64,000 bases of DNA from positions 68,220,672 to 68,284,671 of the forward strand of contig NC_088708.1 in NCBI RefSeq assembly GCF_963576615.1, in the 5' to 3' direction. Positions 4,182 through 61,493 of the stretch are shown piece after piece. The notes under the pieces are model-generated. The model was not told where the DNA came from. It saw nothing but the letters and a program-made list of their open reading frames with translations, and searched no databases. Position 1 is the first letter of the stretch. Every line of letters starts with the position of its first letter. Source of the stretch: Watersipora subatra (taxonomy: Eukaryota > Bryozoa > Gymnolaemata > Cheilostomatida > Watersiporidae). A program made the position numbers and the translations under genes.

Positions 4182-4478
4182 TCAAGCATTGTTTCCACTC
4201 CTTGCCCTGAGCTCTTCGAACTGCTCACACTTCTCTAGTATGTAAACAAAGTAGACATTTTGAAGAGAGGTTATTATATCTTTCTGTAGCTGAAGAGTCA
4301 TAATCATGTGATGTTGGTTCTCTCTTGCCTCAGCTCTCTCTAGTCTTACTGAAACATCTCTTAACTTTCTACCAAGGCAATGGTATTGAGATGTTGCTTC
4401 ATACATTTGTTGTAGTACATGACATTCTTCATCACTGAAATCATAATCGTCTGTTTCATCAGCGCTGTCACCAGACAT
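4182..4478 (-). CDS. 98-aa acidic/helical protein, family A copy 1
   Basis: An intronless frame of 98 codons with its own ATG. The N-terminal 20 residues are very acidic (SADETDDYDFSDEE). From about residue 21 to 95 the sequence is rich in charged and leucine residues and free of proline (LGRKLRDVSVRLERAEARE), as expected for a helix or coiled coil. It ends RARSGNNA. There is no signal peptide or membrane segment. The start is supported by four other copies with the same ATG and length, and by a TATA box about 70 bp upstream. I do not recognise the family and assign no function. This copy differs from the others at a few residues only (for example YEATS against YAATS), which argues that the frame has been kept. 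Confidence 0.72.
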   Translation of the reverse strand: MSGDSADETDDYDFSDEECHVLQQMYEATSQYHCLGRKLRDVSVRLERAEARENQHHMIMTLQLQKDIITSLQNVYFVYILEKCEQFEELRARSGNNA

Positions 4479-4524
4479 TCTGAGTAGTGAGTATCTTCTA
4501 TGATATCAGATTGTGTTGTGTTTT

Positions 4525-4552
4525 ACTGGAACAGCGGAGACCAGTTTATATA
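4525..4552 (-). promoter_or_regulatory. TATA box and initiator of family A copy 1
   Basis: On the minus strand TATATAAA lies at 4552-4545. A CCAGTAAAA initiator-like motif follows, with its A at 4527, about 25 bp downstream: the usual spacing for a TATA/Inr core promoter. The predicted 5' UTR is about 49 nt. The block is nearly identical in front of copies at 6482, 52053, 55435 and 61197. Confidence 0.7.
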
Positions 4553-5855
4553 GTGAGTAACTGTATGACATGAGACAATATTTTAATCCCTTAAATTACT
4601 GTGTCGTACTCAGTACATGGTGAATAGAAACAGTAGAGTATTGGGGAGAGTAGAGATCAAACATCATCGATATTTTAATTACTCAAATGTCTAAATATAG
4701 AGTTAGTCTTTGATCCAGGTGTTCATAAAAAACATTAAAGTGATCTATTCTATCAACCAACTCATATACTCCAACATGTCTCTGCAGAAGATCATAAAGT
4801 TTTACAGAATTCATCATTCATTATTCATCTTTTAAATCTCCATGTTTACAGATTCATGCTAATGACCTATTATTTTTGTAGTTTCACACTCAGCTGTCAA
4901 CTGTATTTAACTGTCTAGTGGAGCAGCACAGTAACATGAAAGTAAAAGTTATGGGCTAGCACAGTATTCTAACAAATCGTTTAAATATGCAATACAAATC
5001 ATCCTCTGTAGATTTAAAAGCAATTTATTAGTCGGTTTATATAATACTAATTTATCAATACTCACAATTGATACATTTTGTAAAATCAAACTTGAATAAT
5101 GAAACACTTGTAGTTATCTTTTTAATTATATTGTTATATAAATATAACAACTGAAAATAACGCATTATTAGAATGAATTTCTTTAGAAAACAGAGTTTTT
5201 AATTATGAGTTGTCTGTCTCTAGGGAAGATAACTGACTGTACTGATTATAGATAAAAGTTGTCTCATCATGCTAAGAAATAAAGTTTTAACACAAGCCAA
5301 CTGACTGGCCACTATTTATAACTAGTTATAAAAATACCACTAAAATATATATGTAATTGAAGTTGTTGCCTTTTGTTACTAAAAACTCATGGAGCGTGTA
5401 TGAAAATGGTACATGAATTTATTCCGTTAAGCAAATTTAGAAATCCTATGCAGAGTGCGCACATGAACTTGTTGTAGTTTAGGCTGTCAATGCAACTTAC
5501 AAGAAGTACTACCAAACCTGTAGTCAGCTGTAAGAATATGGTAATGCTTGCAATAATTTAGTATTGATCAAGTAGAAGTATTTATAATTTGCTTGTATAC
5601 AGAATACAAATATAGAAACCAACTTGGTATCATTGCAAGTACAGAGTCTCCTATATTTGTTTGATATATTTAAGAGGTTTTAACAGTAAAACAGATGTTC
5701 TATTGCTAAACTGTTCTGAGCCATAACAACAATAACAAGTGTTTTTAATAGAGTTTAGCTAATTACATATAAATACATATTAGAGTTACATTGCCATGGC
5801 GATATAACTCTACTATGGTTATGTTGCTCATATGATCAATCTGCGAATAGATAAA
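4553..5855. other. Upstream flank of family A copy 1, no gene seen
   Basis: There is no coding frame of note. The sequence matches about 46830-48060 in inverted orientation, and more weakly the upstream flanks of the other 98-aa genes, including the block CTCAGTACATGGTGAATAGA. It is duplicated gene-flanking DNA. Confidence 0.6.
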
Positions 5856-6130
5856 TCCTGACATACATACATACGTACATAGATACATATGCACATACAT
5901 AAATATTTACGTACATATGTACATATGTGTATTCATATGTATGTACATATGTATGTACATATGTATGTACATATGTATGTACATATGTGCATACATATGT
6001 ATATACGTACATATGTATATACATACATGCGTACATAAGTACATACGTATATACATACGTATGTACACATGTATAACTAATCATCATGTACATCAATCAT
6101 ACGTATGTATGTACATACGTATGATTAATG
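5856..6130. repeat. ACGT-type tetramer/octamer array (a)
   Basis: A degenerate run of TACATACG/TACATATG units, almost purely alternating purine and pyrimidine. Open frames on both strands (MYVCTYV-type text) are artefacts of the repeat. A short related stretch sits at the mirror position, 46785-46825. Confidence 0.95.
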
Positions 6131-6135
6131 ATCAA

Positions 6136-6178
6136 TTTCCATACAGCTATGGTGTTGTTACACCATCGCTGTATGGAA
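6136..6178. repeat. Near-perfect hairpin at the end of array (a)
   Basis: TTTCCATACAGCTATGGTG and CACCATCGCTGTATGGAAA form 19-bp arms with one mismatch around a 5-nt loop. It lies exactly between the ACGT array and the truncated 3' end of the neighbouring 98-aa gene, and supplies that gene's new C-terminus and stop codon. Confidence 0.85.
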
Positions 6179-6482
6179 ACTTGTAGAACAATACTGTAGT
6201 TAATTTTAATGCGAGCTCTTCAAATTGCTCACTCTTGTTTAGTATGTAAGCATAATAGACATTTTGTACGGAGGTTATTGTTTCTTTCTGTAGCTGCAGA
6301 AACATAATCATGTGACATTGGTTCTCTCTTGTCTCAGCTCTCTCTAGTCTCACTGAGACATCTCTCAACTTTCTACCAAGGCAATGGTATTGAGATGTTG
6401 CTGCATACATTTGTTGTAGTACACGACATTCTTCATCACTGAAATCATAGTCGTCTGTTTCATCAGCGCTGCCACTAGACAT
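6147..6482 (-). CDS. 98-aa family copy 2 with replaced C-terminus (111 aa)
   Basis: The first 90 or so residues follow the family closely (MSSGSADETDDYDFSDEE at the start, SEQFEEL near the break). The usual ending RARSGNNA is then lost. The frame runs on through unrelated DNA and into the hairpin at 6136-6178, ending DGVTTP. The conserved 3' flank found after other copies is missing, so a rearrangement removed the last eight or so codons and everything downstream. The TATA box and initiator are intact. The product would have the acidic N-terminus and the helix but a foreign tail. Whether it is expressed or is a young pseudogene cannot be told. Confidence 0.55.
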   Translation of the reverse strand: MSSGSADETDDYDFSDEECRVLQQMYAATSQYHCLGRKLRDVSVRLERAETRENQCHMIMFLQLQKETITSVQNVYYAYILNKSEQFEELALKLTTVLFYKFPYSDGVTTP

Positions 6483-6528
6483 TCTGAGCAGGGAGTCTTT
6501 TCTCTGATATCAGATTGTGTTGTGTTTT

Positions 6529-6556
6529 ACTGGAACAGCTGGAACCAGTTTATATA
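6529..6556 (-). promoter_or_regulatory. TATA box and initiator of family A copy 2
   Basis: TATATAAA is at 6556-6549 on the minus strand and CCAGTAAAA follows with the same spacing as in the other copies. The sequence up to the ATG at 6482 is the family 5' UTR. Confidence 0.65.
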
Positions 6557-6965
6557 GTGAGTGACTGTTTGACATGAGACAATATTTTAATCCCTTCAAT
6601 AACTGTGTCATACTCAGTACATGGTGAATAAAAACAATAGAGTGTCGGGTACAGTAGAGATCAAACATCATTGACATCTTAATTACTCGAATGTCTAAAT
6701 ACAGTTAGTCTCTGATCCATGTGTTCTTAAGAAACTTCAAAGTATATTCATATAAGTCAATCTATCCTATCAGCCAACTCATATACTTGCGCATGTCTCT
6801 GCAGAAGATCATAAAGTTTTACAGAATTCATCATTTATTATTCATCTTTTAAATCTCCATATTTACAGATTCATGCTAATGACCTATTATTTTTGTAGTT
6901 TCACACTCAGCTGTAAACTGTTTTTAACTGTGTAGTTGAGCAGCACAGTAATAGTGAAGCAAAAG

Positions 6966-7530
6966 TTATGAACATATGTATGTACGCACAGATGTACATA
7001 CATACATACGTACGTACATACATACGTACATACGTACATATGTACATACATACGTATGTACATATGTACGTACATACATACGTACATACACACGCACATA
7101 CATACGTACATACATACGTACATACATACGTGCATGCATACGTACATACATACGTACATACATACATGCGTACGTACATACATACGTACGTACATACGTA
7201 CATACATACGTACATGCATACATACGTATGTACATACATACGTACATACGTATGTACATACGTACGTACATATGTACATACATACGTATGTATGTACATA
7301 CATATGTACATACATACATATGTACATACATACATACGTACATACATACATATGTACGTACATACATACGTACATACATACATCCGTATGTACATACATA
7401 CGTACATACATACGTAGGTACATACGTACATACCTATGTACGTACATACATACGTATGTACATATGTATGTAAATACGTACATATGTACATACATACGTA
7501 AATATGTACATATGTACATACGTACATGTA
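6966..7530. repeat. ACGT-type tetramer/octamer array (b)
   Basis: About 565 bp of TACG/TACA/TATG units with almost complete purine-pyrimidine alternation. Six overlapping open frames of 137-210 codons on both strands are repeat artefacts with only M, Y, V, C, T, H, I and R. Confidence 0.97.
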
Positions 7531-9574: not shown

Positions 9575-9659
9575 GTTATAATTAAGATATTGATGTCAAC
9601 GTTACTCGTTATCATAAATACAAAAATGCATAAAAACTTTCATACATATGTGTATACAA

Positions 9660-10425: not shown

Positions 10426-10429
10426 CTGA

Positions 10430-22203: not shown

Positions 22204-22921
22204 TTAAGTCTTAAAATTGCTTAAAAGGAATTTGCCAGCATGTCTACATGTTGAAACTAGTTCGCAGCGTTTGTTTAAGGTAGCAATGTTAGGATTGTAT
22301 ATAATATAAAATTTCTCATACAGACATAGGTTGCATCTGCCTGTGGTCTTGTTGTATGATGTAGCTCTTTTGACTATGCTCCACTTGATGTTATATTCTA
22401 TGCCTTGGTCTTTTAAGGTCCATATGTGCTTACTGAGCTCGGTGCTTGATCTTTTCTCTACATTTCTAAAGGTTGTCATATGATTGTAATAGCGTTGTTT
22501 GAATGTGGTGTCAGTCAATCCTATGTAATGTTCGTCCGCAGATTGATCATTGGTGGTGACTGTCGCCTTATATATAATTGACTTGCTCAGGCACTTTCCT
22601 TGTAGTGGGCAGCCATTCTTATGTCGGCAGTTGCATTCTCTTGGTTCTGTAGTTATAGGGGTCTCATTGTGATGCTGCAGCAATCTGGTATTATGAGCGC
22701 TAATGATACTGCTCACATTGTTCATACAGCTGTAGCTTAATTTCACAAAGTTTCTATTGAAGATCTTACGAAGAGCGTGTGATTTAGGGAACTCTGTGTC
22801 CAGGATATTAAAGAAAATCTTACCGATGTTATTGGCTACATTTTTGCTGAATGGCGGGTTGTACCATAGTATCGGTCTTCGTCTGGTATTCTTGTCTCTG
22901 TTTTGCGCATTGTTTGTCGGG
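22204..22921 (-). pseudogene. GIY-YIG endonuclease part of a Penelope-like element (left)
   Basis: The frame carries the features of the C-terminal endonuclease of Penelope-like elements. First comes a Cys-rich patch CNCRHKNGCPLQGKC, then the GIY-YIG core (IIYKATV ... HYIGLT), then FKQRYYNH with the conserved Arg and His, and later CLYEKFY with a Glu. It ends LLSNFKT. The frame continues a little into the spacer, to 22986, but element sequence stops at 22921. Without the reverse transcriptase it cannot be autonomous. It is identical in protein to the right copy over 180 residues. Confidence 0.8.
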
Positions 22922-23142: not shown

Positions 23143-23685
23143 GTGAAATTAAGCTACAGCTGTATGAACAATGTGAGCAGTATCATTAGCGCTCATAATA
23201 CCAGATTGCTGCAGCATCACAATGAGACCCCTATAACTACAGAACCAAGAGAATGCAACTGCCGACATAAGAATGGCTGCCCACTACAAGGAAAGTGCCT
23301 GAGCAAGTCAATTATATATAAGGCGACAGTCACCACCAATGATCAATCTGCGGACGAACATTACATAGGATTGACTGACACCACATTCAAACAACGCTAT
23401 TACAATCATATGACAACCTTTAGAAATGTAGAGAAAAGATCAAGCACCGAGCTCAGTAAGCACATATGGACCTTAAAAGACCAAGGCATAGAATATAACA
23501 TCAAGTGGAGCATAGTCAAAAGAGCTACATCATACAACAAGACCACAGGCAGATGCAACCTATGTCTGTATGAGAAATTTTATATTATATACAATCCTAA
23601 CATTGCTACCTTAAACAAACGCTGCGAACTAGTTTCAACATGTAGACATGCTGGCAAATTCCTTTTAAGCAATTTTAAGACTTAA
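23143..23685 (+). pseudogene. GIY-YIG endonuclease part of a Penelope-like element (right)
   Basis: Same protein as the left copy: Cys patch, GIY-YIG core, FKQRYYNH, CLYEKFY, ending LLSNFKT at 23685. The first Met used here (MKLSYSCMNN in this reading) is internal to the family. The frame is open further upstream to the palindrome spacer. Confidence 0.8.
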
Positions 23686-35280: not shown

Positions 35281-35439
35281 AACTCACAGGATGATTCTGC
35301 GCTTTGCTGATAATAATAGAAAGCAAATCTTGACTAGGCGCTGAACTTACGTGAACCCAAACAGCAAGTAAGTAGGGAGAAAGGGTATTTTAGCAACAAA
35401 CACAGGCTCCCCTTCATAAATCATTTTCAAAAATTTAAT

Positions 35440-35766: not shown

Positions 35767-36016
35767 TGACGATTTGGCCAATGAGACATGTCAACAAAGG
35801 GAAATTGGAGGAGTCAATATGATATATTGGAGGAAGTCTTAGATATGTCTCAGACTAGAAAAAGCTAAGGCTAGAAAGAGTCAGCGTCACATGGTAGTGA
35901 GCTTTCAGTTACAAAGAGATACAATATCTTCTGTCCTTCAAGACTACAGATTGTATATGTTTCTCAAGTCTGGCTATCTCCGAGGTATTAAGATGAGAAC
36001 GCAAGGACATGCTTGA
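35767..36016 (+). pseudogene. Sister family B copy 3, 5' part decayed
   Basis: From about 35860 the frame reads ARKSQRHMVVSFQLQRD, then LKSGYLRGIKMRTQGHA with a TGA at 36014. This parallels the C-terminal helix of the 98-aa family (ARENQHHMIMTLQLQKD). Upstream, TAG and frame breaks destroy the N-terminal part and no ATG is left. The C-terminal part is intact in this copy, while in copies at 58963 and 54045 it is broken. Confidence 0.55.
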
Positions 36017-46410: not shown

Positions 46411-48072
46411 CTGAACAACAAATATACTCTATTATGATTTATTTTATATCAAACTCTTCAAGCGTAACCAAACTAGACTGAGCTCACTTTACAGCTGAGT
46501 TATGTTATATCTGTGTATTATATGTATGCATGGATAGTAGGACTAACAACTTGTAACTGAATCTTGAGAACTTTATCTAAAAACTATAAAACTAATTTAA
46601 TCAATTAGTTTCTTTTTATTAATGTCATTTTAATGATTTAGTAATGGTATTAAAAACTGGTAACAAAATTATGAACTAGGCTGCAAAGCCATTTTATGTC
46701 ATTAAATACATTCCTGGCATTCTCAGAGAGTTGTTTATCAGAGTTGTAAAACAGAGTTGTAGCCATAAATCTACTACTTCTTTGTATGTACATACATACG
46801 TGCGTACGTATGTATGTACAAGTGTACACAAGATTTATCTATTTACAGATTGTTCATACGAGCAATGTAATTATATTAAAGTTATATAGCCATAGAAGTA
46901 TAACTCTAACATATATCTAGATGTAATTGGCTAAACTCTATTAAAAACATCTGTTATTGTTGTTATGGCTTAGAACAGCTTAGCAACATAACATGTGTTT
47001 CACTGTTAAACCTATTAAATATGTCAAACAAATATAGGAGACTCTGTACTTGCAATGATACCAAGTTGGTTTCTATATTTGTATTCTGTATACAAGCAAA
47101 TTATAAATACTTCTACTTGATCCATAGTAAATTATTGCAAGAATTACCATATTCTTACAGCTGACTACAGGTTTGCTAGTACTTCTTGCAAGTTGCATTG
47201 ACAGCCTAAATTACAACAAATTTGCATAACATTTTCACACACTGTAAGAGTTTTCAGTCACAAGAGGCAACAACTCGAATAACACAATTATCTCATCTGT
47301 ATTTTGTCATGACTAGTTATCAATAGCGATCAGTTTGTCAACTTGCGTTAAAAGATATTTCTTAGCATAATGAGGCAAATGGTACCTTTAACCAGTGCAT
47401 TCAGTTGTCCTCTCTAGAGACTGACAACTCACAGTTAGAAACTGTGATCGCTAAAGAAATGAGTCGTATAATTGAGCTATGATCATTTGTTATAGTTGTT
47501 AAACTATAAATATAGCTACAATTATAACTGCAGATATAGCTAAAAATGCTTCAATGTAATCAAAATTCAGACTTTACAAGATCTGTCAAATGTTGGTATT
47601 AATAAGCTAGCGGTATATAAAGCATTCAGTGTTTGTTTTTCAATATAAAAAATGATCCTTAAAGCATATTTAGAGCATTTGATAGTAAATAGTTGGCCGT
47701 TTTTTACTACATTAATAAACCATTGGAAACAAGTTATGAATTGGTTACATGTAATTCCACAAAATAAGAGCTCAGTGCAAAACATATATAGGACGTTATA
47801 AGTCATGATCACAAATCTGTGAGGTTCATAGTTGAGCAATAAATGGTCAAATCTGTAAAACCTCATGATGTTCTGTTGATAAATAAGCAAATATATGAGT
47901 TGAATGGTAAAAAATATTGACTCATATTAATATACTTTGAAGTTTCTTAAGAACATCTTGAATCAGAGACTAACTTTATATTTAGATATTTGAGTAATTA
48001 AGATATCAATGATGTTTGATCTCTAATTTCCCTAACACTCTTTTGTTTCTATTCACCATGTACTTTATGCAG
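46411..48072. other. Mirrored flank between D8C gene 4 and a 98-aa gene copy
   Basis: No gene. 46410-46780 matches 8920-9256 inverted, 46785-46825 is a short ACGT stretch, and 46830-48060 matches 4600-5860 inverted. Arm 1 has about 2 kb more at this place (arrays, copy 2 of the 98-aa family and family B flank). Confidence 0.55.
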
Positions 48073-48355
48073 CACTGATGAGACAGATGATTATGATTTC
48101 AGTGATGAAGAATGTCATGTACTACAATTAATGTATGCAACAACATCTCAATACCATCGCCTTGGTAGGAAGTTAAAAGATATTTCAGTGAGACTAGAGA
48201 GAGCTGAGGCAAGAGAGAATCAAAGCCACATGATTATGACTCTTCAGCTACAGAAAGATGCAATAGCCTCTACTCTAAATGTCTACTTTGCTTACATACT
48301 AGACAAGTGTGAGCAGTTTGAAGAGCTCAGAGCAAGGAGTGGAAACAATGCTTGA
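48073..48355 (+). pseudogene. 98-aa family copy 3, promoter and start codon deleted
   Basis: The frame is intact from the acidic segment (DETDDYDFSDEE) to RARSGNNA and the stop. The upstream sequence jumps from the far promoter block (CACCATGTACTT) directly into codon 6 or so. TATA box, 5' UTR and ATG, together about 140 bp, are missing. The first in-frame ATG is at 48131, within the helix. The 3' flank is normal. This is the mirror partner of the intact copy at 4182-4478. Confidence 0.7.
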
Positions 48356-49392
48356 GTATTCCTCAGTTTTTCTTTATAATCTATTTTACATAATCAGTCC
48401 TTTTTAGGGCTACCAACTATTATTCAAAACGGCTTTTCAGCTGTGATCATTATTTACAGTTCATGATGTACTTTGACTAAAATCTGTTTACTTTTGTGAG
48501 AACATAAATCTCACAGTTGCTTAGATTTATCTTAATTTGAAAAAAATCGAAGTTTAAAAATTAATGTTTACAGGAAATCGACTGCCATATTATATATTAT
48601 GTTAAAGATTTAGTATACTGTGTTGCTCAATAAACAGCAGAGATAATCTAGAATCAGCATTACCTTGTTTAGTATATACATGTAGATATACATATAGAGA
48701 TATAATATATCTGTGTTTATGGGAAGAAGAAAGTATAAATAATAGGTGCACGACTCTCATAAAAACCTATCCGTATTATAGCGAAAGGTTGTCTGATTCT
48801 GTTACATTGACAGGATCAAATTTTTGTTACATTGACATGAAATAGCTAACATTAAGTAATAAAGATAAAAGTTAAAGTTCTACAATGTTTTGTAAAATTT
48901 ATTTGTTATGTTAAATCAGAAAGCAACCGCTTGAATTTATCAGCATGAGTTTTAAGTAAGATTATGTATAGTTTAGAAAAAGTGTCAATTGCAAGTTTTG
49001 ATATTGCATCAGTCAGTTTTATTTGTTCTTATTGATTTTATTTTGAGTTTATTTTAATCTCAAATTCTACTAAAGTTTATCACAGAAACTGGTCTTTGGT
49101 TAAACGTTGTAATCTTGTTTTTTTTCTACATAAATTTTTGCGTGAAATCCGTTATGATTACCAATGGAGCGACCAACATAACATTGCCGCCAAGCCGCGT
49201 AGACGGAAGAGAACACCTCCCTATAAGTGCAGCTGATGCATCAGGTGCAGTACGTCTTGTGACAAGCTGTTGTTGCTCGCCGCTCGACGGGGGACAGCTA
49301 CACAAAAACAACAGCTTGTCAAGACAGGCTACATCCAACTATAAAATCACTTTCAATGGGAGCGAGTATAGCAAGATGAGTATTTGAATTAA
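48356..49392. other. 3' flank of copy 3 and an inserted G+C-richer block
   Basis: 48360-48730 is the duplicated 3' flank. A motif with CCTATCCGTATTATAG occurs at 48770 and again at 49420, and inverted near 63795. The block 49150-49340 is G+C richer and contains inverted halves around ACAAGCTGTTGTT / AACAACAGCTTGT (49262-49320). The short frames across it on both strands are not recognisable. Confidence 0.4.
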
Positions 49393-49639
49393 TAATACAG
49401 CAGAACCACTCTCATGAAGGCCTATCCGTATTATAGTGAAAGGTTGTCTGACACTGTTAAATTGACAGAAGAGAAGAGACAACTACAGGAAGATTAATGT
49501 TCCACTACAGTTTAATGTTATACAGGCTGTCCAACATTATACAGTTGATTGAAGCTTTGCTATCGTTTCTGCTAGTACCCTGGTAGTTCAGTATGCTGAT
49601 AAAGCGTGAGGGATAATTATTTGCACAAGTATCCAGAAA

Positions 49640-49850
49640 TGCTGGTAGGTTTGTATTGATGCTGGTGTTACACCATCGGTCTCTTAATCGGAAGGTTATG
49701 AATTCGAATCCTGCGTGACATAATCTTTTTCTCAACCTCTAGCCTTAGCTTTGAACAGAGGGATGGACAGCTATAGGTCTTATCATAGTGACGATATTAT
49801 TATTGATGTAGACTCTGAGCAATAAACGAAACTTACACGAACTTACATCA
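49640..49850 (+). repeat. tRNA-derived SINE
   Basis: A tRNA-like head has a box A-like TGGTGTTACACCATCGG and a good box B (GAATTCGAATCC). A tail with CCTTAGCTTTGAACAGAGGG follows and ends near TCTGAGCAATAAAC. Inverted copies are at 57640-57815 and 63405-63600. Confidence 0.65.
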
Positions 49851-50241
49851 CACATTCATAACATACTATTGTAGCTTTAGTTGTCTCTTTTTTGAGTTTT
49901 GATAACATTTGTAAACATGGTCAAGCTATCAAGGCAAGTAATAAAATAGAGATATACGACAGAGAACTAGCATTATGCAGCTTATACTTTCATGTACACT
50001 CCAGTCCGTGTATCAGTGGCATTAGGCAAGTTTAAAGAATAACATAGCCTTTGATCTTATACCTACAAAGGAACGCAATTATAAGCATTTAAATATAACA
50101 CATGCTATCATAAATTTAAAGTTTGTCGCGTCAGCCAAACTGAAAATAGTACGGATTACCTTTAGAGCTAAATATTTTGAGCGTGTAACAAACAAAGAAT
50201 AGGTTTGGTATATAATATCAAACAATTATGTACGTGAGACT

Positions 50242-51180
50242 ACTGTAAGCAACAATATGCACCAGAAATCACATCAAAACCTTTGACACTTCGACATCCA
50301 TTTGGAAGATTTGTTCCCTTACTGTTTTTATCGCCAAACTTTCTACGACTAACGGGAACCATCTTGCATTTCCTTCTTTGGAACCAAATAAAAAAGGCTA
50401 AAATCATAGTGAAAAAACAGATGTTCTTGGAATATATGAGGTGAATATGTTATTTGAAGGGCAGTCTATGAAGAGTCTTACATTTTTACTCACTAGCAAC
50501 ATATAAAAAACAACTCAGTTTATGATCTTTGACTTTTTCCTGCCTCTTCTCTGCTATGATCTGTTCAGAATGTGTTGTCATGTAGGGAAGGGAAATGTGC
50601 AAACTGTTTTCAGGATTGATGACATTACGGTATTTATTTTTGATGTATAAAAGGTATGAAGGTCCGGATTCACATAGGCGAGTAGTTATGACCCAGCCCT
50701 AAGAACAGCAGTTTCTTTTATCAGGAAGCCCAGCTTTAGAGAGTGTTGAGGTTATGACCTAATTTGAGTGAATACAGCTGCAAAGATTTTCAAATCCACA
50801 ATCCGGAGTACCTGCAATGGATCCACATTCAAGAATGAGAAACCAGCTATCAATTAGTAACTTTTGCTATCTGCATAATCTTTACACTTTCCAAGTACGC
50901 CATTAGATACCACCAAATACACAACACATATTTTTTGTCATCAAAACAAAACTTTATGTGATTTTAAAAACTTATCAATGACACAGTAAGAGAATCTGAA
51001 ATTTGATTGTATAAAGTGTTCTCTATGTTTAATAAAACTTCAATTTAATAAATTAAAATGGTAAAGTTTCTCTGATTGTTATGTATAAACACACACCAAC
51101 CTTGCTTGCAGAAATATCTTGCACCGGACTGAGATTAATGGGGACTCTGTGAGAGTCACAGTTTTGATGTTCTATTGTAA
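50242..51180 (-). other. Exon-like blocks of an unrecognised gene
   Basis: On the minus strand several blocks look coding. One near 51180-51108 reads CDSHRVPINLSPVQDISASK before GT. A block near 50810 after CATTGCAG reads TPDCGFENLCSCIHSN and a stop. Another near 50590 reads TTHSEQIIAEKRQEKVKDHK. One near 50420-50242 reads ICFFTMILAFFIWFQRRKCK, helix-like with a basic end, on to a stop. The Cys-containing block stays open in the copies at 56675 and 62445; the other blocks are broken in at least one copy. I recognise no family and the splicing does not connect cleanly. Treat it as a hypothesis. Confidence 0.25.
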
Positions 51181-51756
51181 AATATATGATAGTAAAACCT
51201 CTATATTATGATAAAATCTGAACAGACCTCTCAGTAAACCTCATCTTTTTTATACATTTTTTTTTTTATGCATTTATTGTATATTTTTTCTCTTAATGTA
51301 TTTGCACTGCACAAAACAATTTTTTCATAGTGTGAAGTTTAAAGGTTAGAATGGTAAATGTTGTATATATTAAATAAAAATAAGTTTTTTGTTCAAAGAC
51401 TTTTTTATTACACAGGCAACGTCAGGCATTTATCTGTGTATCTATATACTATCAAGGTAATGCTGTTATCTCTGCAACTTATTGAACAGTATTATTAAAT
51501 CTTTAGCATTGGTATAATAGGGCGTTTGATTTCCTGCCAAAAGTAATTTTTCAACCTTCATTTTTTAACAACAAAATTAAATCAAAAGAAACATAGGAGT
51601 ATTATATCATCACAAAACTGAACAGATTTCAGATAACACATATAAGATGAAATGTACATTATGATAACACCTGAACAGAGCTCTCTGGATAATAGTTGGT
51701 AGCCCTGAAAAGGACTGATTGTGTAAAATAGATTGTGAATAATGAATGAAGAATAC

Positions 51757-52053
51757 TCAAGCATTGTTTCCATTCCTTGCCCTGAGCTCTTCGAACTGCT
51801 CACACTTGTCTAGTATGTAAGCAAAGTAGACATTTTGAAGAGAGGTTATTGTTTCTTTCTGCAGCTGAAGAGTCATAATCATGTGGCTTTGGTTCTCTCT
51901 TGTCTCAGCTCTCTCTAGTCTCACTGAGACATCTCTTAACTTTCTACCAAGGCAATGGTATTGAGACGTTGCAGCATACATTAGTCGTAATACATGATAT
52001 TCTTCATCGCTGAAATCATAGTCGTCTGTTTCATCAGCGCTGTCACCAGACAT
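51757..52053 (-). CDS. 98-aa acidic/helical protein, family A copy 4
   Basis: An intact 98-codon frame with ATG, acidic N-terminus (SADETDDYDFSDEE), helical middle (LGRKLRDVSVRLERAETRE) and the ending RARNGNNA. It differs from copy 6 at 61197-61493 by a single residue (N against S near the end). Copies 4 and 6 are mirror partners in the two palindrome arms. A TATA box is about 70 bp upstream and the conserved 3' block with AGTCCTTTTCAGGGCTACC follows. Function unknown. Confidence 0.73.
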   Translation of the reverse strand: MSGDSADETDDYDFSDEEYHVLRLMYAATSQYHCLGRKLRDVSVRLERAETRENQSHMIMTLQLQKETITSLQNVYFAYILDKCEQFEELRARNGNNA

Positions 52054-52096
52054 TCTGAGGAGTGAGTATTTCTCTGATATCAGATTGTGTTGTGTT

Positions 52097-52126
52097 TTAC
52101 TGGAACAGCAAGGACCAGTTTATATA
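52097..52126 (-). promoter_or_regulatory. TATA box and initiator of family A copy 4
   Basis: TATATAAA is at 52126-52119 on the minus strand, followed by CCAGTAAAA at the family spacing. Confidence 0.7.
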
Positions 52127-54044
52127 GTGAGTGACTGTATGACATGAGACAATATTTTAATCTCTTTAATTACTGTGTCATACTCAGTACATGGTGAATA
52201 GAAACAATAGAGTGTTGGGGAGAGTAGAGATCAAACATCACTGACATCTTAATTACTCAAATCTTTAAATATAGACTTAGTCTCTTTGATCCATGTGTTC
52301 AAAGCGTATTCATATGTGTCTATCTATTCTATCAACCAACTCATATACTTACCCATGCCTCTACAGGACATCATAAGGTTTTACAGATTTGACCATTTAT
52401 TGTTCATCTGTAAAATTTCCAGCTTTACAGATTCATGTTAACAACCTATTAAATTTGTGGTTTCATATTCAGTTGTTCATCATATGGATATTTTTAACTG
52501 TTTAGTAGAACAGCGCAGTACTAATGAGTTCAAAGTTATGGACTAGCACAGTATTCAAACAGATCTTATAAATATGCAGTACAAATCATCCTCTCCAGAT
52601 TTTAATGAAATTTATTGGTGAGCTTATATAACACTAGCTTATCAGTACCCACAGTTCATACGTTTTGTAAAATCTGAGTGCGTTCCATAATGAAACATTT
52701 ATAGTTATATTTTTGGTTATATTTGTAGTTTAATTAATATAATAATAAATCATCACTCATTTATACGATGCTTCTTTAAAACAAACATAATTTCTAATTG
52801 TGAGTTGTCTGTCTGTAGAGAGAACAACTGACTGCTCCAATTAAAGATACCAGTAGTCTCATCATACTAGAAAATATATTTTTAATGCAAGTCAACTAAA
52901 CTTATTGATTTCTACTACCAACTAATCATAAAAAATGAAAATAAGAGCAATTTTTTATTGGAGTTGTTGCATCTTGTTACTGAAAACTCATGCAGAGCGT
53001 GTAAAGATGGTACATGAATATTTTGTAATTAAAGCTGTCATTATAACTTCGTGTTGTGAGAAGAATTAGCAAATCAGCAGTCAGGTGCGAATGTGGTGTT
53101 GCTAGCAATAATGTCGTATTGCTACGTACAACCAGTTCTAATTTGCTTGTAAGAATACAAATATGGAAACAAACTTGGTATCATTTCAAGTTCAGAGTCT
53201 ACTATATTTGCTTGATATATTTAGCAGGTTTCAACAATAAAACAGTTGTTATATTGCTAAACTGCTGTCACACAAAGCAATATTAACAAACTTTAATGAA
53301 CTAAATTTAGATACGTGTTTGTGTTACGTTGCTATGGCAATATAACTTTAATATTATTGTTGCACATACGCTCAATTCGTTGATAAACAAGAAGGTCACC
53401 TTAGTAATACTATGGTTGTGTTGCTATGTTTAGCTATCTCAGTATCTACATGTATATCTATCTCTACATCTATTTCAAGCCATTTAGATTGTCTCTTCCC
53501 TGCATTTCTAAAAATCAACAAAATTAAAATATTGGAATAGTTATAATTAGATATAAAGATGCAAAGTATACAATCTCAAATTAAGTAATACCAAACTCTC
53601 AGCAGACAATTAGTCATACTTGAACACACTCCAACTAGAAATATACATTACCCACAATGCTCCTCCACTACTTTTTTGTAAAATGACAACTGAGAGCAAC
53701 CAAAGATAATCTATAATAGATTTTTTACTGCTGAGCAGAAGTAAAATTAGCTGTTTTTTCATCAAAGAAAAATCCACTAAAAAACATAATTTTGTATGTT
53801 ACCTTTTAGCTATTTTTTATGTTTCTGTAAACGGATATCATCTAGATAATAGATATTGTCATAGTTATGTCAATCAAAAACTCATGGGTGAATAGGTGTA
53901 TTTTCAGATAACACTTGCTCAAATATCAGTAATTATCCAAATAAATTGTACACTAGGTAACAGAACAAAATTTTTGAGGAAGATTTGGTACCCCCAAAAA
54001 GGGCTGGATGTTTGAAAAAACCATGGAAATCAACTAAACAATAT

Positions 54045-54323
54045 TCAAGCATGTCCTTGCCTTCTCATCTCAATACCTCGAAGGATCTTAGTCTTGTGCA
54101 ATATGTACATTCTGTAAATGTGACGGACTGAAGATATTACATCTCTCTATAGCTGGAGGATCCCCAACCACCATGTGATGTTGGTTCTTTCTAACCCTAG
54201 CTCTTTCTAGTCTAACTGAGACATCTCTCAGCCTTCCTCTAATAATATCATGTTAACACACTCCAACTTCTATTTGTTGCCCTATATTGTATGCCAAATC
54301 ATCAAGAATCTGTAATCAGCCAT
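54045..54323 (-). pseudogene. Sister family B copy 2
   Basis: An ATG at 54323 starts MADYRF-like codons, but frameshifts and stops follow soon. The middle still reads RLRDVSVRLERARVRKNQHH in one frame, matching the 98-aa family core. The end carries RGIEMRRQGHA and a TGA at 54047-54045. A TATAAAA box lies about 70 bp upstream (54395-54389). It is a decayed relative of the 98-aa genes. Confidence 0.6.
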
Positions 54324-54720
54324 TTTATTCACTAAATTTCATATCAGATATCAGGTTGACAGGTGATTTACAGAAAAAGAAAAGAGCATTTTATACACCT
54401 TCCAATTGTGACATTTGAGGGGCATTTGAACTGTCTTAATGTGTGTTGAAAGTGTCAAATGGATAAATCTAAGATAGCATTATTAATAAAAGCTGAAGTA
54501 TTAGCTATTCATATTATTCAACATTCTACAGGTCATTTTGAAAACTATAATTATAGATTTTGCTGAAATTGAGCTGATCTGTTCAGTTTAAAAGATGAGA
54601 TGATTTAATCTATACTAATTACTATAACTAGCTGTATACTATGACTAGCCAAAATATCCATCAATATTTTAGAGTTGTTGTTGTAATTTCTGTTTAATCA
54701 AATTAATTTAGAATGGTGTT

Positions 54721-55434
54721 TACTAAAGAAACGCATAGCACAAACTACCAATGTAACTACAAAGATAACTATAAATAATTCATTATAAAATATATTCATA
54801 TTTTACAAGATGTATCAAGAGTGGGTATTGAATAGCTAGCGTTGTATGAAACCAGAGCCGTACAGCTTCACAGCTGGCTCTGTATGAATTGACAAATAAA
54901 ATTCTTTAAAACCTGAAGAGGACAATTTGCTCTACATATTTATAAGCTCTGTTCCAAGACTGTGTGAGTCCATAACTTTGAATTCATTAGCACTGTACTG
55001 CTTTACTAAACAGTTAAAACCATTCATATGATGACAACTAAATGTGAAACCATAATTTCATACGTTATTAACATGAATCTGTAAAGCTGGAAATTTTACA
55101 GATCAACCATAAATGGTCAAATATGTAAAACCTTGTGATGTTCTCGTTGTGAGATAGACTCATATCGATACACTTTGAAGTTTTTTAAGAACACCTGAAT
55201 CAGAGACAAAGTCTATATTTAGACATCTGAGTAATTAAGATACCAATGATGTTTGATCTCTACTCTCCCCAACACTCTACTGTTTCTATTCACCATGTAC
55301 TGAGTATGACACAGTAATTAAAGGGATTAAAATATTGTCTTATGTCATACAGTCACTCACTATATAAACTGGTTCTCGCTGTTTCAGTAAAACACAACAC
55401 AATCTGATATCAGAGAAGAGACTCACTGCTCAGA
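54721..55434. other. Palindrome loop: upstream flank of family A copy 5
   Basis: No gene before the promoter. From about 55200 the sequence runs parallel to 60960 onward. Confidence 0.5.
55361..55395 (+). promoter_or_regulatory. TATA box and initiator of family A copy 5
   Basis: TATATAAA is at 55361-55368 and TTTCAGTAAAA follows about 20-27 bp on. The ATG is at 55435. Confidence 0.7.
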
Positions 55435-55731
55435 ATGTCTGGTGACAGCACTGATGAAACAGACGACTATGATTTCAGTGATGAAGAATGTCGTGTACTA
55501 CAACAAATGTATGCAGCAACATCCCAATACCATTGCCTTGGTAGAAAGTTAAGAGATGTCTCAGTGAGACTAGAGAGAGCTGAGACAAGAGAGAACCAAC
55601 ACCACATGATTATGACTCTTCAGCTACAGAAAGATGCAATAGCCTCTCTTCAAAATGTCTATTTTGTTTACATACTAGACAAGAGTGAGCAGTTCGAAGA
55701 GCTCAGGGCAAAGAGTGAAAACAATGCTTGA
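55435..55731 (+). CDS. 98-aa acidic/helical protein, family A copy 5
   Basis: An intact frame of 98 codons: acidic N-terminus (STDETDDYDFSDEE), LGRKLRDVSVRLERAETRE, LQLQKDAIASLQNVYF, ending RAKSENNA. It lies in the loop between the palindrome arms, in tandem orientation with copy 6. The 2.2 kb after it also match the 3' flank of copy 6. Substitutions against copies 1, 4 and 6 do not break the frame. No function is assigned. Confidence 0.72.
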   Translation: MSGDSTDETDDYDFSDEECRVLQQMYAATSQYHCLGRKLRDVSVRLERAETRENQHHMIMTLQLQKDAIASLQNVYFVYILDKSEQFEELRAKSENNA

Positions 55732-57955
55732 GTATTTCTCAGTCATTATCCACAACCTATTTTACACAATCAGTCCTTTTCAGGGCTACCAACTATTATC
55801 CAGAGAGCTCTGTTCAGGTTTTAACATAATGTAGATGTCATCTTATATGTTTTGTCTACAATCTGTTCAGTTTTGTGATGACATAATACTCCTATGTTTC
55901 CTTTGTATTAATTTCATTGTTAAAAAATGAAGGTTGAAAGATTACTTTTGACAGGAAATCAAACGCCCTATTATACCAATGTTAAAGGTTTAATATTACT
56001 GTTCAATAAGTCGCAGAGATAACAGCATTACCTTGATAGTATATAGATACACAGATAAATGCCTGACGTTGCCTGTGTAATAAAAAAGTCTTTGAACAGA
56101 AAATATATTTTTATTTAACATATACAACATTTACCATTCTAACTTTCAAACTTCACATCATAAAAAAATGTTTTGTGCAGTTCGAATAAATTTATAGAAT
56201 AAATAAACAATGAGTACATGAAAGCGTGTATAAAAAAGATGGAATTTTCTGAGAGGTCCGTTCAGATTTTATCATAATAGAGAGTTCCTACTATCATATA
56301 TTTTACAATAGAATATGAAAACTGTGACTCTCACAGAGTACCCATTAATCTCAGTCCAGTGCAAGATATTTCTGCAAGCAAGGTTGATGTGTGTTTATAT
56401 ATAACAGTCAGAGAAACTTTACCATTTTAGTTTATTAAATTGAAGTTTTATTAAACATAGAGAACACTTTATACAATCAAATTTCAGATTCTCTTACTGT
56501 GTCATTGATAAGTTTTTAAAATCAAGTAAAGTTTTGTTTTGATGACAAAAAATAAGTATTGTGTATTTGGTGGTATCTAATGGCGTACTTGGAAAATGTA
56601 AAGATCCTGCAGGTAGCAAAAGTTACTACTTGATAGCTGGTTTCTCATTCTTGAATGTGGATCCGTAGCAGGTGCTCCGGGTTGTGGATTTGAAAATCTT
56701 TGCAGCTGCATTCACACAAGTTAGGTCATAACTTCAACACTCTCTAAAGCTGGGCTTCTTAATAAGAGAAACTGTTGATCTTAGGGCTGCAGGGTAACTA
56801 CACGCCTCTGTGAATCTAGATCTTCATACCTTCTATACATCAAAAATCAATATCGTAATGTCATCAATCCTGAAAATAATTTGCACATTTCACTTACCTA
56901 CAAGACAACACATTCTGAAGAGATAATAGCAGAGAAGAGACGGGAAAAAGTCAAAGATCATAAACAGCGTTATTTCTTATATGTTGCTGCTGAGTAAAAA
57001 CGTAAGATTCTTCTTAGACTGCCCTTCAAATAACATATTCATCTCATATTTTCCAAATACATCTGTTTTTTACTATGATTTGAGCCTTTATTATTTTGTT
57101 CCAAATGCAAGATGGCTCTCGTTAGTCGTAGGAAGCTTGGCGATAAAAACAAATAGGGAAGCACTGTTACAAACGGTTGTTGAAACGTCAAAAGTTTTGA
57201 TTTGACTTTTGGTGCACATTGTTGCTTACAGTGATCTCACACACAAAAAATGTTTGATACTATATACCAAACCTATTCTTTGTTTATTACACGCTCAAAA
57301 TATTTAGCTCTAAAGGTAATCTGTACTATTTTCAGTTTGGCTGATGCGACAAACTTTAATTTTATGATAGCGTGTGTTATATTTAAATGCTTTAATTCCT
57401 CTGTAATTATAAGATCAAAGGCTATGTTATTCTTTAAACTTGCCTAATGCCACTGATACACGGACTGGAGTGTACATGAAAGTATAAGCTGCATAATGCT
57501 AGCTCTCTTTTATATATCTCTATTTTATTACTTGCCTTGATAGCTTGACCATGTTTACAAATGTTATTGAAACTTTAAAAAGAGAGTACAAAAACTACAA
57601 TAGTAGGATATGAAAGTGGGGTGGGGATAAGTTTGGTTTATTGCTCAGAGTCTACGTCAATAATAATAATCTTTAATATAAAAAGACCTGTAGCTGCCCA
57701 ACCCTCTGTTCAAAGCTAAGGCTAGAGATTGAGAAAAAGATTATGTCATGCAGGATTCGAATTCCCAACCTTCCGATCTAACACCTGTACCAATAACGCA
57801 CCTTCCAGCATTTCTGGATACTTGTACAAATAGTTATCTTCGGTGCTTATCAGCGTACCGAACTACCAGGTTACTATAGATAGCAGAAATGATAGCAAAG
57901 CTACAATCAACTGTATAATGGTGGACAACCTGTATAGCATTAAACTGTAGTAAAG
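55732..57955 (+). other. 3' flank of copy 5, directly repeated at 61494-63720
   Basis: It contains the conserved 3' block, the 80-bp dispersed repeat (GCCTGACGTTGCCTGTGTAA at 56060), the degenerate exon-like blocks and an inverted SINE copy (57640-57815). The open frames 56981-57205 and 57250-57447 are not conserved in frame with the other copies. No gene is supported. Confidence 0.5.
57640..57815 (-). repeat. tRNA-derived SINE, copy 2
   Basis: The box B complement GGATTCGAATTC and the CCCTCTGTTCAAAGCTAAGG tail are recognisable. The tRNA-like head has lost several bases compared with 63500-63600. Confidence 0.6.
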
Positions 57956-57963
57956 CATCAATC

Positions 57964-58150
57964 TTGTGTTTTACTGGAACAGCGGAGACCAGTTTATATA
58001 GTGAGTGACTGTGTGACATGAGACAATATTTTAATCTCTTCAATTACTGTGTCATACTCAGTACATGGTGTATAGAAACAATAGAGTGTTGGGGAGAGTA
58101 GAGATCAAACATCATTGGCATCTTAATCACTCAAATGTCTAAATATAGAC
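57964..58150 (-). promoter_or_regulatory. Orphan 98-aa family promoter without its gene
   Basis: On the minus strand the upstream block (CTCAGTACATGG region), the TATATAAA (58000-57993) and the CCAGTAAAACACA initiator are all present. At about 57960 the sequence then changes to the end of the copy 5 flank (TAAAGCATCAATCTT). The coding region has been cut away at or just after the predicted transcription start. Confidence 0.75.
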
Positions 58151-58890
58151 TTAGTCTCTTTGATCCATGTGTTCAAAGCGTATTCATATGTGTCTATCTA
58201 TTCTATCAACCAACTCATATACTTACCCATGCCTCTACAGAACATCATAAGGTTTTACAGAGTTGACCATTTATGGTTCATCTGTAACATTTCCAGCTTT
58301 ACAGATTCTTGTTAATAACCTAGTAAATTTGTGGTTTCACACTCAGTTGTCATCATATGAATGGTTTTAACTGTTTAGTAGAGCAACTCAGTACTAATGA
58401 GTTCAAAGTTATTGACTAGATTAAATACATATGTATGTAGTACAAAGCATCCTCTTTTAAAGGTTTTAAAGAAATGTATTGGTCGGCTCATATAGAGCCT
58501 TATAGCTTCACAACTGTGAAACTATACAGCTAAATAACTCGTTTGTACAATGCATTTCTTTACTAAACATAAATCTAAATTAATTTGATTAAACAGAAAT
58601 TACAACAAAAACTCTAAAATACTGATGGATATCTTGGCTAGTCATAGTATACAGCTAGTTATAGTAATTAGTATAGATTAAATCATCTCATCTTTTAAAC
58701 TGAGCAGATCAGCTCAATGTCAGCAAAATCTATAATTATAGTTTTCAAATTGACCTGTAGAATGTTGAATAATGTGAATAGCTAATATTTCAGCTTTTAT
58801 TAATAATGCTATCATAGATTTATCCATTTGACACTTTCAACACACTTTAAGACAGCTCAAATGCCCCTCAAATGTGACACTTGGAAGGTG

Positions 58891-58922
58891 TATAAATTGC
58901 TCTATTCTTTTTCAGTAAATCA
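58891..58922 (+). promoter_or_regulatory. TATA box and initiator of family B copy 1
   Basis: TATAAAT at 58891 and TTTCAGTAAA at 58911-58920 give the same layout as in family A, followed by ACCTAATATCTG, which resembles the family A leader ACAATCTGATATC. The promoter outlived the coding frame. Confidence 0.5.
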
Positions 58923-58962
58923 CATGTCAACCTAATATCTGAAAAGAAATTCAGTGATTAGA

Positions 58963-59237
58963 ATGCCTGACTACAGATTATTGACGATTTGGCATACAAG
59001 ACACGTCAACAAATAGAAGTTGTAATGTGCCAATATGATATTATTAGAGAAAGGCTGAGAGATGTCTCAGTTAGACGAGAAAGAGCTAGGGTTAGAAAGA
59101 ACCAACATCACATGGTGGTGATCCTCTAGCTATAGAGAGATGTAATATCTTCTGTGCGTCACATTTACAGAATCTACATATTGCACAAGACTAAGATCCT
59201 CCGAGGTATTGAGATGAGAAGGCAAGGACATGCTTGA
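58963..59237 (+). pseudogene. Sister family B copy 1
   Basis: After an ATG the frame breaks. In the family frame it reads RERLRDVSVRRERARVRKNQ and HHMVVIL, then two TAG codons in place of the LQLQ region, then a C-terminal part with YILHKTKILRGIEMRRQ and GHA stop. It lines up along its whole length with the 98-aa family. It is clearly non-functional as a full protein. Confidence 0.62.
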
Positions 59238-61123
59238 AAATTGTTTAGTTGATTTCCATGGTTTTTTCAAACATCCAGCCCTTTTTAGGGCTACCAGGTC
59301 TTTTAAAAAAAATTTTTGTTCTGTTACCTAGTGTGTTATTTATCTGAATAATTACTGATATTTGAGTAAGTGTTATCTGAAGATAAACCTATTCATCCAT
59401 GAGTTTTTGATTGACATAACTATGACAATATCTATTATCTGGATAATATCCATTTATAGAAACATGAAAATAGCTAAAAAGTAAACTAAAAATTAGGTTT
59501 TCCAATTGAATTTTTTTTATGAAAAAAACCGCTAACTTTACTTCTGCTCAACAGTAAAAGATCTATTATAGATTAACTTTGGTTGCTCTCTGTTGTCATT
59601 TTACAAAAAGGCACTGAAGGAGCATTGTGGGTAATGTATATTTCTAGTTAGAGTGTCATCAAGTATGACTAATTATCTGCTGAGAGTTTGATATTACTTA
59701 ATTTGAGATTGTATACTTTGCATCTTTATATCTAGTTATAACTATTCCATTATATTTTAATTTTGTTGATTTTTAGAAATGCGGGGAATAGACAATGTAA
59801 ATGGCTTGAAATAGATGTAGAGATAGATATACATGTAGATACTGAGATAGATATACATAGCAACACAAACATAGTATTACTAAGGTGACCTTGATGTTTA
59901 TCAATGAATTGGGAATATGAACAACAATAATATTAAAGTTATATTGCCATAGCAACGTAACACAAACATGTATCTAAATTTAGTTTGTTGAAGTTTAGTA
60001 ATATAACAACTGTTTTGCTGTTAAAATCTATTAAATATATCAAGCAAATATAGTAGACCCTGGGCTTGATACCAAGTTTGTTTCCATATTTGTATTCTTA
60101 CAAGCAAATAATAACTACTTGTACGTAGCAATACTACATTATTGCAAGCGGCACCACATTCGCACCTGACTGCTGATTTGCTAATTCGTCTCATAGTACC
60201 AAGTTATAGTGATAGCTTCAATTACAAAATATTCATGTACCATCTTTACACACTCTGCATGAGCTTTCAGTAACAAGAAGCAACAACTCCAAAAACACAT
60301 TGCTATTATTGGCAGTTTTTATGATTAGTTGGTAGTAGAGATCAGTTAGTTTTGTTGACTTGCATTAAAAAAACATTTTCTATTATGGCGAGACTACTGG
60401 TATCTCTAATTGGAGCAGTCAGTTGTTCTCTCTACAGACAGACAACTCACAATTAGAAATTATGTTTGTTTTAAAGAAGCGTCGTATAAATGAGTGATGG
60501 TTTATTATTATATTAATTAAAATGCAAATATAAATAAAAATATAACTATAAATGTTTCATTATGGAACGCACTCAGATTTTACAAAACGTATGAACTGTG
60601 GGTACTGATAAGCTAGTGTTATATAAGCTCACCAATAAATTTCATTAAAATCTGGAGAGGATGATTTGTACTGCATATTTATAAGATCTGTTTGAATACT
60701 GTGCTAGTCCATAACTTTGAACTCATTAGTACTGCGCTGTTCTACTAAACAGTTAAAAATATCCATATGATGAACAACTGAATATGAAACCACAAATTTA
60801 ATAGGTTGTTAACATGAATCTGTAAAGCTGGAAATTTTACAGATGAACAATAAATGGTCAAATCTGTAAAACCTTATGATGTCCTGTAGAGGCATGGGTA
60901 AGTATATGAGTTGGTTGATAGAATAGATAGACACATATGAATACGCTTTGAACACATGGATCAAAGAGACTAAGTCTATATTTAAAGATTTGAGTAATTA
61001 AGATGTCAGTGATGTTTGATCTCTACTCTCCCCAACACTCTATTGTTTCTATTCACCATGTACTGAGTATGACACAGTAATTAAAGGGATTAAAATATTG
61101 TCTCATGTCATACAGTCACTCAC

Positions 61124-61155
61124 TATATAAACTGGTCCTTGCTGTTCCAGTAAAA
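61124..61155 (+). promoter_or_regulatory. TATA box and initiator of family A copy 6
   Basis: TATATAAA is at 61124-61131 and TTCCAGTAAAA at 61145-61155. The ATG is at 61197. Confidence 0.7.
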
Positions 61156-61196
61156 CACAACACAATCTGATATCAGAGAAATACTCACTCCTCAGA

Positions 61197-61493
61197 ATGT
61201 CTGGTGACAGCGCTGATGAAACAGACGACTATGATTTCAGCGATGAAGAATATCATGTATTACGACTAATGTATGCTGCAACGTCTCAATACCATTGCCT
61301 TGGTAGAAAGTTAAGAGATGTCTCAGTGAGACTAGAGAGAGCTGAGACAAGAGAGAACCAAAGCCACATGATTATGACTCTTCAGCTGCAGAAAGAAACA
61401 ATAACCTCTCTTCAAAATGTCTACTTTGCTTACATACTAGACAAGTGTGAGCAATTCGAAGAGCTCAGGGCAAGGAGTGGAAACAATGCTTGA
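61197..61493 (+). CDS. 98-aa acidic/helical protein, family A copy 6
   Basis: An intact 98-codon frame, the mirror partner of copy 4, from which it differs by one residue. N-terminus SGDSADETDDYDFSDEE, then YHVLRLMYAATSQYHCLGRK, a helical region with regularly spaced Leu/Val and many charges, and the ending RARSGNNA. There is one Cys in the middle and one near the C-terminus (DKCEQFEEL). Promoter and 3' block are as in the other copies. No known domain recognised; nuclear or cytosolic location is only likely from the lack of a signal peptide. Confidence 0.73.
   Translation: MSGDSADETDDYDFSDEEYHVLRLMYAATSQYHCLGRKLRDVSVRLERAETRENQSHMIMTLQLQKETITSLQNVYFAYILDKCEQFEELRARSGNNA

Follow-up and report, generated by a model that had tools for sequence, protein, structure and literature searches.

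A Local Family of Small Single-Exon Genes

We analyzed a 64-kb stretch of the genome of the bryozoan Watersipora subatra (64,000 nucleotides of contig NC_088708.1, positions 68,220,672 to 68,284,671; hereafter the window), in which small genes of one family, followed by a stem-loop of the histone type, recur in various states of preservation (Table 1). Tblastn, blastn and alignment identified four intact open reading frames (ORFs) of 98 codons. An earlier, sequence-only reading of this DNA had proposed an unrecognized multicopy single-exon family with a conserved transcription unit, and the tblastn and blastn searches, the alignment, Pfam and PDB agree with it. Of the five open copies that it counted, four are the intact ORFs; in the fifth, copy 6213, which is open, the original 3' end is missing, and the ORF therefore continues to position 6147 (111 residues). 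The promoter-less copy, the orphan promoter and the three decayed sister copies that it listed were all recovered. The TATA/initiator leader that it ascribed to every copy is present in the four intact copies, copy 6213 and the orphan promoter, and is weaker in sisters 54234 and 59019; the promoter-less copy 48070 has lost it, and it is missing from sister 35843.

The genome searched comprises 783.7 Mb in 239 contigs, and all match counts from genome searches given here are lower bounds. Tblastn found at least 11 family matches, every one on a single contig between 68.20 and 68.95 Mb: nine inside the window, a truncated copy 17 kb beyond it, and one intact divergent copy at a distance of 0.67 Mb. 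The latter, the paralogue L009 (L009:1664-1978(-)), has 104 codons and is 38–44% identical to the family over the aligned part in the searches and 34–39% identical in the multiple alignment. Using this paralogue as the query added just one doubtful locus, L096 on C3 (E 0.0017, 28% identity). This locus (L096:102-551(+), C3:50.589 Mb) holds a single-exon ORF of 149 residues with weak similarity to the family and is a possible distant paralogue.

Table 1. Family copies, promoter elements and 3'-end elements in the window. Scores are for the Rfam Histone3 model (RF00032) and for R1, a covariance model built from host histone 3' ends.
Feature	Position	Strand	Evidence and remarks
Copy 1, intact 98-codon ORF	4182..4478	-	ORF list, tblastn/blastn, alignment
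Copy 2, intact 98-codon ORF	51757..52053	-	ORF list, tblastn/blastn
Copy 3, intact 98-codon ORF	55435..55731	+	ORF list, tblastn/blastn
Copy 4, intact 98-codon ORF	61197..61493	+	ORF list, tblastn/blastn
Fifth copy (6213), promoter and 90 codons kept	6213..6482	-	tblastn/blastn, alignment
Promoter-less copy (48070), open from codon 5	48070..48355	+	tblastn/blastn, alignment
Orphan promoter fragment	57964..58419	-	tblastn/blastn, self-comparison
Decayed sister 59019, in-frame stops	58963..59237	+	tblastn/blastn
Decayed sister 54234	54045..54323	-	tblastn/blastn
Decayed sister 35843, stem-loop unrecognizable	35843..36016	+	tblastn/blastn, alignment; no R1 match
TATA box, copy 1, TATATAAA	4545..4552	-	74 nt before ATG
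TATA box, copy 3	55361..55368	+	Promoter comparison
TATA box, copy 4	61124..61131	+	Promoter comparison
Stem-loop, copy 1, AGTCCT TTTC AGGACT then ACCA	4126..4141	-	RF00032 27.7 bits, E 1.9e-5 (match 4100-4146); R1 30.5 bits, E 8.2e-6
Stem-loop, copy 2	51701..51716	-	RF00032 22.2 bits (match at 51675); R1 25.4 bits, E 2e-4
Stem-loop, copy 3	55772..55787	+	RF00032 22.2 bits (match at 55767); R1 27.2 bits, E 6.5e-5
Stem-loop, copy 4	61534..61549	+	RF00032 20.8 bits (match at 61529); R1 25.9 bits, E 1.5e-4
Stem-loop, promoter-less copy, AGTCCT TTTT AGGGCT	48396..48411	+	RF00032 18.6 bits, E 0.052 (match at 48391); R1 19.4 bits, E 0.0085
Stem-loop, sister 59019, AGCCCT TTTT AGGGCT, all pairs kept	59277..59292	+	RF00032 27.2 bits, E 2.7e-4 (match at 59272); R1 20 bits, E 0.0059
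Degraded stem-loop, sister 54234, second stem pair broken	53990..54005	-	RF00032 15.1 bits, E 9 (match at 53965); no R1 match
Downstream-element-like block, copy 1, CAGAGAGCTCTGTTC	4098..4112	-	Alignment; position counted from sequence
Downstream-element-like block, copy 2	51673..51687	-	Alignment; position counted from sequence
Downstream-element-like block, copy 3	55801..55815	+	Alignment; position counted from sequence
Downstream-element-like block, copy 4	61563..61577	+	Alignment; position counted from sequence

The Family Genes End Like Histone Genes

The sequence-only reading had noticed a constant 3' block behind the coding region. The block is indeed there, but its nature had been missed: it consists of a histone-type stem-loop and a downstream element. 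In copies keeping it intact it reads AGYCCT TTTY AGGRCT ACCA, that is, a six-base-pair stem, a UUUC loop and ACCA, followed by a purine element; how the downstream element is laid out is described in PMC1924863 and PMC7026596. The stem begins 40 nt after the stop codon in all four intact copies and 39 nt after it in L009. By E-value, the Histone3 model matches seven of the eight copies with an alignable 3' region, the eighth, 35843, not having been searched singly; L009 scores 24.3 bits (E 0.0023), and a control stretch of 10.8 kb gave 17 matches, none of them to Histone3. The pattern AGTCCTTTTCAGGACT, with up to three mismatches allowed, occurs nine times in the window against 0.41 expected, and six of the nine are family 3' ends. 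Likewise, six of the eight matches in a relaxed paired-stem scan of the window are family 3' ends, and ten shuffled sequences gave zero or one match each. The second stem pair is G-C in all rows compared save sister 54234; according to the accessible text of PMC10388802, guanine in this pair is required by the stem-loop binding protein (SLBP). The downstream element is altered in copies 48070 and 59019, and copy 6213 has lost the stem-loop.

For comparison with the host, a histone search of the genome returned at least 25 matches, with stem-loops at 16 of the 25 loci (19 when counted once per gene). The 19 stem-loops lie behind H2A, H2B, H3 and H4 in five clusters and behind one further H2A, without exception following a histone ORF, 23–67 nt past the end of the histone match. 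Their 3' ends read GGYCCT YTTY AGGRCC ACC, a spacer, and then AAGAGTTGTTC with small variants. From these 19 ends alone, the family being excluded, we built the covariance model R1 and searched 80,142 bases, window included. Three transposon loci ranked highest (43.7–51.4 bits), followed by the paralogue L009 (34.4 bits, E 7e-7). Within the window the four intact copies lead (30.5, 27.2, 25.9 and 25.4 bits; E 8e-6 to 2e-4), followed by the matches at 59277 (20.0 bits) and 48391 (19.4 bits), the best other match in the window reaching 13.8 bits. The four intact copies and L009 match the model over its full length, with the ACC flank and the purine element at the histone spacing. The model lists neither of the degraded ends, 53990 and 35843, and gives no match at the locus of copy 6213.

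These comparisons make a strong case, at the level of sequence, that the family carries a complete 3' end of the host histone type. Its genes resemble the replication-dependent histone genes (H2A, H2B, H3, H4) in having a TATA promoter, one exon, several copies, a short 3' untranslated region (UTR), a stem-loop of six base pairs and four loop nucleotides, an ACC flank and a purine downstream element. The family TATA box stands at -73 or -74, and in 18 of 21 histone promoters of the same genome it lies between -40 and -92. Unlike the histone genes, the family encodes a protein that is not a histone and lies outside the histone clusters found. We consider it probable that this is a non-histone, lineage-specific, multicopy family of single-exon genes using histone mRNA 3'-end processing. 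If so, the rule that stem-loop 3' ends belong to histones only would be broken by a non-histone family, and such a family would allow the effect of the stem-loop by itself to be tested directly.

Conservation and Selection

Divergence among copies 4182, 51757 and 55435 outlines a core, between -184 and about +382 counted from the ATG, which differs by 6.0–6.4% compared with 13.6–25.7% in the flanks (Fisher P 4e-5 to 9e-20 for the three copy pairs). Relative to the core, divergence in the flanks is 3.4 and 4.3 times as high in the two pairs that include copy 4182, and 2.2 times as high in the remaining pair. A block of 40 nt that covers the stem-loop and the first part of the downstream element varies in 2 of 120 comparisons (1.7%). 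Of the blocks for which data are full it is the least diverged; an end block, with 64 comparisons, stands at 1.6%. In the block right after the 40-nt block, divergence climbs to 19%. The proposal of the sequence-only reading that the unit of duplication is a complete transcription unit needs correction, as the duplicated blocks bearing the family, many of them inverted, range from less than 1 kb to 5.4 kb and do not coincide with the gene. What matches the transcription unit in extent is the conserved core. Between copies 51757 and 61197, the 431 upstream positions compared show no difference, the 3' UTR block differs by 5.7% and the downstream DNA by 16.6%, a pattern suggestive of gene conversion in the recent past.

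All six stem pairs are kept in each of nine distinct rows, which comprise window copies, one sister, L009 and the 3' ends of three transposons, and for this set the paired percentage, the number of cells changed on both sides and the covariation score were reached by none of 500 shuffles.

In the coding region, dN/dS, a check that the earlier reading had suggested, lies at 0.20–0.51 in all 15 pairs of six copies (Nei-Gojobori), below 1 and away from the near-neutral value. In neutral simulations of five of the 15 pairs with transition biases of 2 and 4, the synonymous excess had P values of 0.0135–0.315. The bias observed in the coding pairs is about 6, above the simulated values, which would weaken this support further. 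Coding constraint on the family is thus supported, though weakly when taken on its own. These modest P values, together with the several broken copies, would suit dead or neutrally drifting local duplicates without a product. We regard this as improbable in view of the four intact ORFs, the low dN/dS in every pair, the core two- to four-fold less diverged than its flanks, and the paralogue that is intact at 34–39% identity.

The Encoded Protein

The protein is acidic (isoelectric point (pI) 4.7–4.8, 11.5 kDa), chiefly through its first 18 residues. Two AlphaFold models, from six and nine alignment rows, show an unordered tail and two long helices, with mean pLDDT values of 89.7 and 89.6. The acidic N-terminus of the earlier description therefore stands, but its long charged helix gives way to a two-helix hairpin: the models predict an acidic tail followed by an antiparallel helical hairpin. 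Pfam gave no family at its cut-off for three of the four intact copies or for L009 (best E 0.015), the PDB sequence search with copy 55435 gave no significant match (best E 0.46), and comparison of the predicted structure with known folds gave no meaningful match. Searches of viral contigs and prokaryotic genomes gave no relative.

A highly diverged histone or histone variant would explain the histone-type 3' end, the single exon, the multiple copies and the small size at once. However, the same Pfam search gave no histone match, BLASTP found no match to H3 or H4, two long helices are predicted in place of the three-helix histone fold, and the protein is acidic; we consider this explanation very improbable. 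As a guess, and a doubtful one, the protein may be a coiled-coil partner needed alongside DNA replication, perhaps associated with chromatin.

The immediate early response (IER) family, PF05760, consists of small genes that lack introns and encode a helical motif at the N-terminus, and the present family is similar in both respects. Membership was not supported: PF05760 matches just one locus, on C6, and not the family, and a family hidden Markov model placed that C6 protein 449th of the 1654 sequences reported from a set of this protein and 2000 shuffles.

Transposons with the Same 3' End

A genome-wide Histone3 search scored 75 of 137,633 candidates, 74 of the 75 lying above the cut-off. We read the first 30 of the 75 loci (L011-L040), 3 kb each. 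None has a histone ORF match within the 3 kb. At 21 of the 30, homology to Tc1-type transposases on the same strand ends shortly before the stem-loop, and the remaining nine have the same kind of 3' end without transposase homology. The Tc1/mariner elements among these loci fall into at least two sequence groups, and in them a perfect stem-loop of the histone type follows the stop codon of the transposase; Pfam confirmed the Tc1-type transposase in L013 and L035. A strict pattern of stem-loop plus downstream element had 85 exact matches in the genome and none in the reversed control, and just nine of the 85 lie, by position, inside histone clusters. Thirty of the 85 loci (L066-L095) were read and sorted by adjoining sequence in common: three are histone genes, and the 27 others form two further Tc1-like groups (nine and four loci), two groups like long terminal repeat (LTR) elements (four and nine) and one single locus. 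With Pfam, L076 and L081 were confirmed to encode transposase and L086 a copia-type gag, the other assignments resting on shared sequence. The LTR-like loci with stem-loop and element are L066, L070-L073, L077, L078, L082, L083, L085, L086, L089 and L095. Same-strand pairs of strict matches, four of them 5,904–5,906 bp and three 6,199–6,585 bp apart, are spaced as expected for long terminal repeats.

Some LTR-like members also show an open frame of about 150 codons (MALN.KHC.FS...) ending just before the stem-loop.

On balance we lean towards the view that the 3' end regarded as histone-only has escaped the histones, and that the host stem-loop and element stand at the ends of the non-histone family, of four or more Tc1/mariner groups and of copia-like LTR elements alike. 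Its presence on transposons is the more surprising by-product of the analysis. With the host histone 3' end on the family and on transposons, both would have mRNAs whose synthesis and breakdown follow DNA replication, and transposons using it would have their expression tied to S phase. In the literature searched, mostly without subscription papers, we found no account of a 3' end of the histone type on a transposon or on any gene outside the histones, and none of the matches listed joins "histone stem-loop" to Tc1, mariner and transposase. As far as the accessible portions of the sources go, SLBP is not implicated in regulating other genes (PMC2781718), and 3'-end processing factors have been linked to retrotransposon small RNAs (PMC5392987).

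Mobile elements share the 3' end, and a rival reading that deserves weight is that this part of the genes came from one of them. The stem-loop and element could have been acquired from a Tc1/mariner or LTR element, or the family could be the cargo of an unrecognized element, and the end may still work in either case. The absence of histone ORFs from the Histone3 loci read, the transposase at most of them, the small share of strict matches in histone clusters, and the better fit of element ends than of family ends to the host histone model all point that way. The family nevertheless differs from the Tc1/mariner transposons of the same genome, which encode a transposase and are dispersed over many contigs: Pfam detected no transposase, gag or similar domain in three intact copies or L009, so that no transposon-protein match of the kind named beforehand as contrary evidence was found, and all 11 family matches found fall within 0.75 Mb. 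Furthermore, the 3' end is retained at a matching distance in a paralogue of 34–39% identity, which indicates that it is old, and the A-U first stem pair occurs in neither the 19 histone nor the three Tc1 rows compared. We judge such an origin unlikely, though it is the most serious of the alternatives.

Processing Machinery and Proposed Mechanism

The SLBP RNA-binding domain was found above its cut-off at two loci (C4:7.381-7.384 Mb and C1:5.039-5.044 Mb); at each, two stretches matched, 2–5 kb apart, and these we took as exons. For U7, the RF00066 search gave one match over the cut-off, without clear complementarity to the downstream element, and a species-specific pattern gave five matches compared with four in the reversed control.

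One site on C6 (C6:20143341-20143363(-)), a possible U7 small nuclear RNA, has an element-complementary sequence five bases before a AATTTGTC site, in a pattern overall not above control.

In the reading that we prefer, that of a non-histone family using histone mRNA 3'-end processing, the TATA promoter would drive a short intronless transcript. SLBP would bind the hairpin 40 nt after the stop codon, and the U7 small nuclear ribonucleoprotein would pair with the purine element about 14 nt beyond the hairpin. Cleavage of the RNA between hairpin and element would then leave a short mRNA that lacks poly(A) and varies in abundance with DNA replication. From the sequence features we infer that the histone-type end is used in cells: that the RNA is cleaved and carries no poly(A), that it is expressed in S phase and that a fitting U7 RNA exists.

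Several observations weigh against this reading. No family copy reaches the RF00032 gathering threshold of 34 bits (best 27.7), a whole-window Rfam scan at gathering scores gave no match, and weak Histone3 matches are discussed for a viral genome in the available part of PMC7786107. Mobile-element ends fit the histone model better (40–67 bits) than family ends do (19–34 bits). The first stem pair of the family is A-U compared with G-C in all 19 histones. Human SLBP needs at least two adenines immediately 5' of the stem, as stated in PMC10388802, and the window copies have TC there instead of the usual AC; this human rule does not transfer, however, because 15 of the 19 histones of this genome have AC. 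In the nine-row set, the number of pairs with changes on both sides (reached by 165 of 500 shuffles) and the number of pair types (426 of 500) are not above shuffles, and the A-U/G-C change lies between family and transposons; for the seven window rows alone, the broken sister included, 348 of 500 shuffles reached the covariation score. The recent gene conversion suggested for copies 51757 and 61197 could explain part of the core conservation. TATA-type words alone are common to the family promoter and the 21 histone promoters, and the commonest other histone words (CGCTCGCT, CCAATAA etc.) are not conserved in the three family promoters compared. The putative distant paralogue L096 lacks the histone stem-loop. 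Finally, neither RF00066 nor the species-specific pattern securely identified a U7 RNA in the genome, and AATAAA-like words occur about 300 nt downstream.

The last two points and the scores under the Rfam curated cut-off would also be expected of an ordinary polyadenylated family, in which the hairpin would be a leftover or serve some other function, e.g., in mRNA stability. The hairpin block is, however, the least diverged full block, with divergence rising straight after it, and the match to the host histone ends includes the downstream element; this explanation appears improbable to us, only slightly less so than that of dead duplicates.

Other Features of the Window

Two inverted ORFs with identical 173-residue translations, 22204-22725(-) and 23164-23685(+), lie about 440 bp apart; they look GIY-YIG-like by eye and have no Pfam match at E 1. 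Their sequences suggest a recent inverted element or an assembly fold-back. Much of the window is palindromic because of large inverted duplications: 49407-54745 is 90% identical to 63824-58541, and inverted patches of roughly 75–90% identity relate about 2.2–18 kb to about 49–35 kb. A hAT-like transposon at 28947-30905(-) combines a Spin-doc zinc finger (PF18658) and a weak, sub-cut-off hAT dimerisation match in separate frames. Long minisatellite arrays with a 21-bp period, translated as MFRGNYF / MLRGYYF, occupy 3-2108 and 33884-35344 and are about 91% alike.

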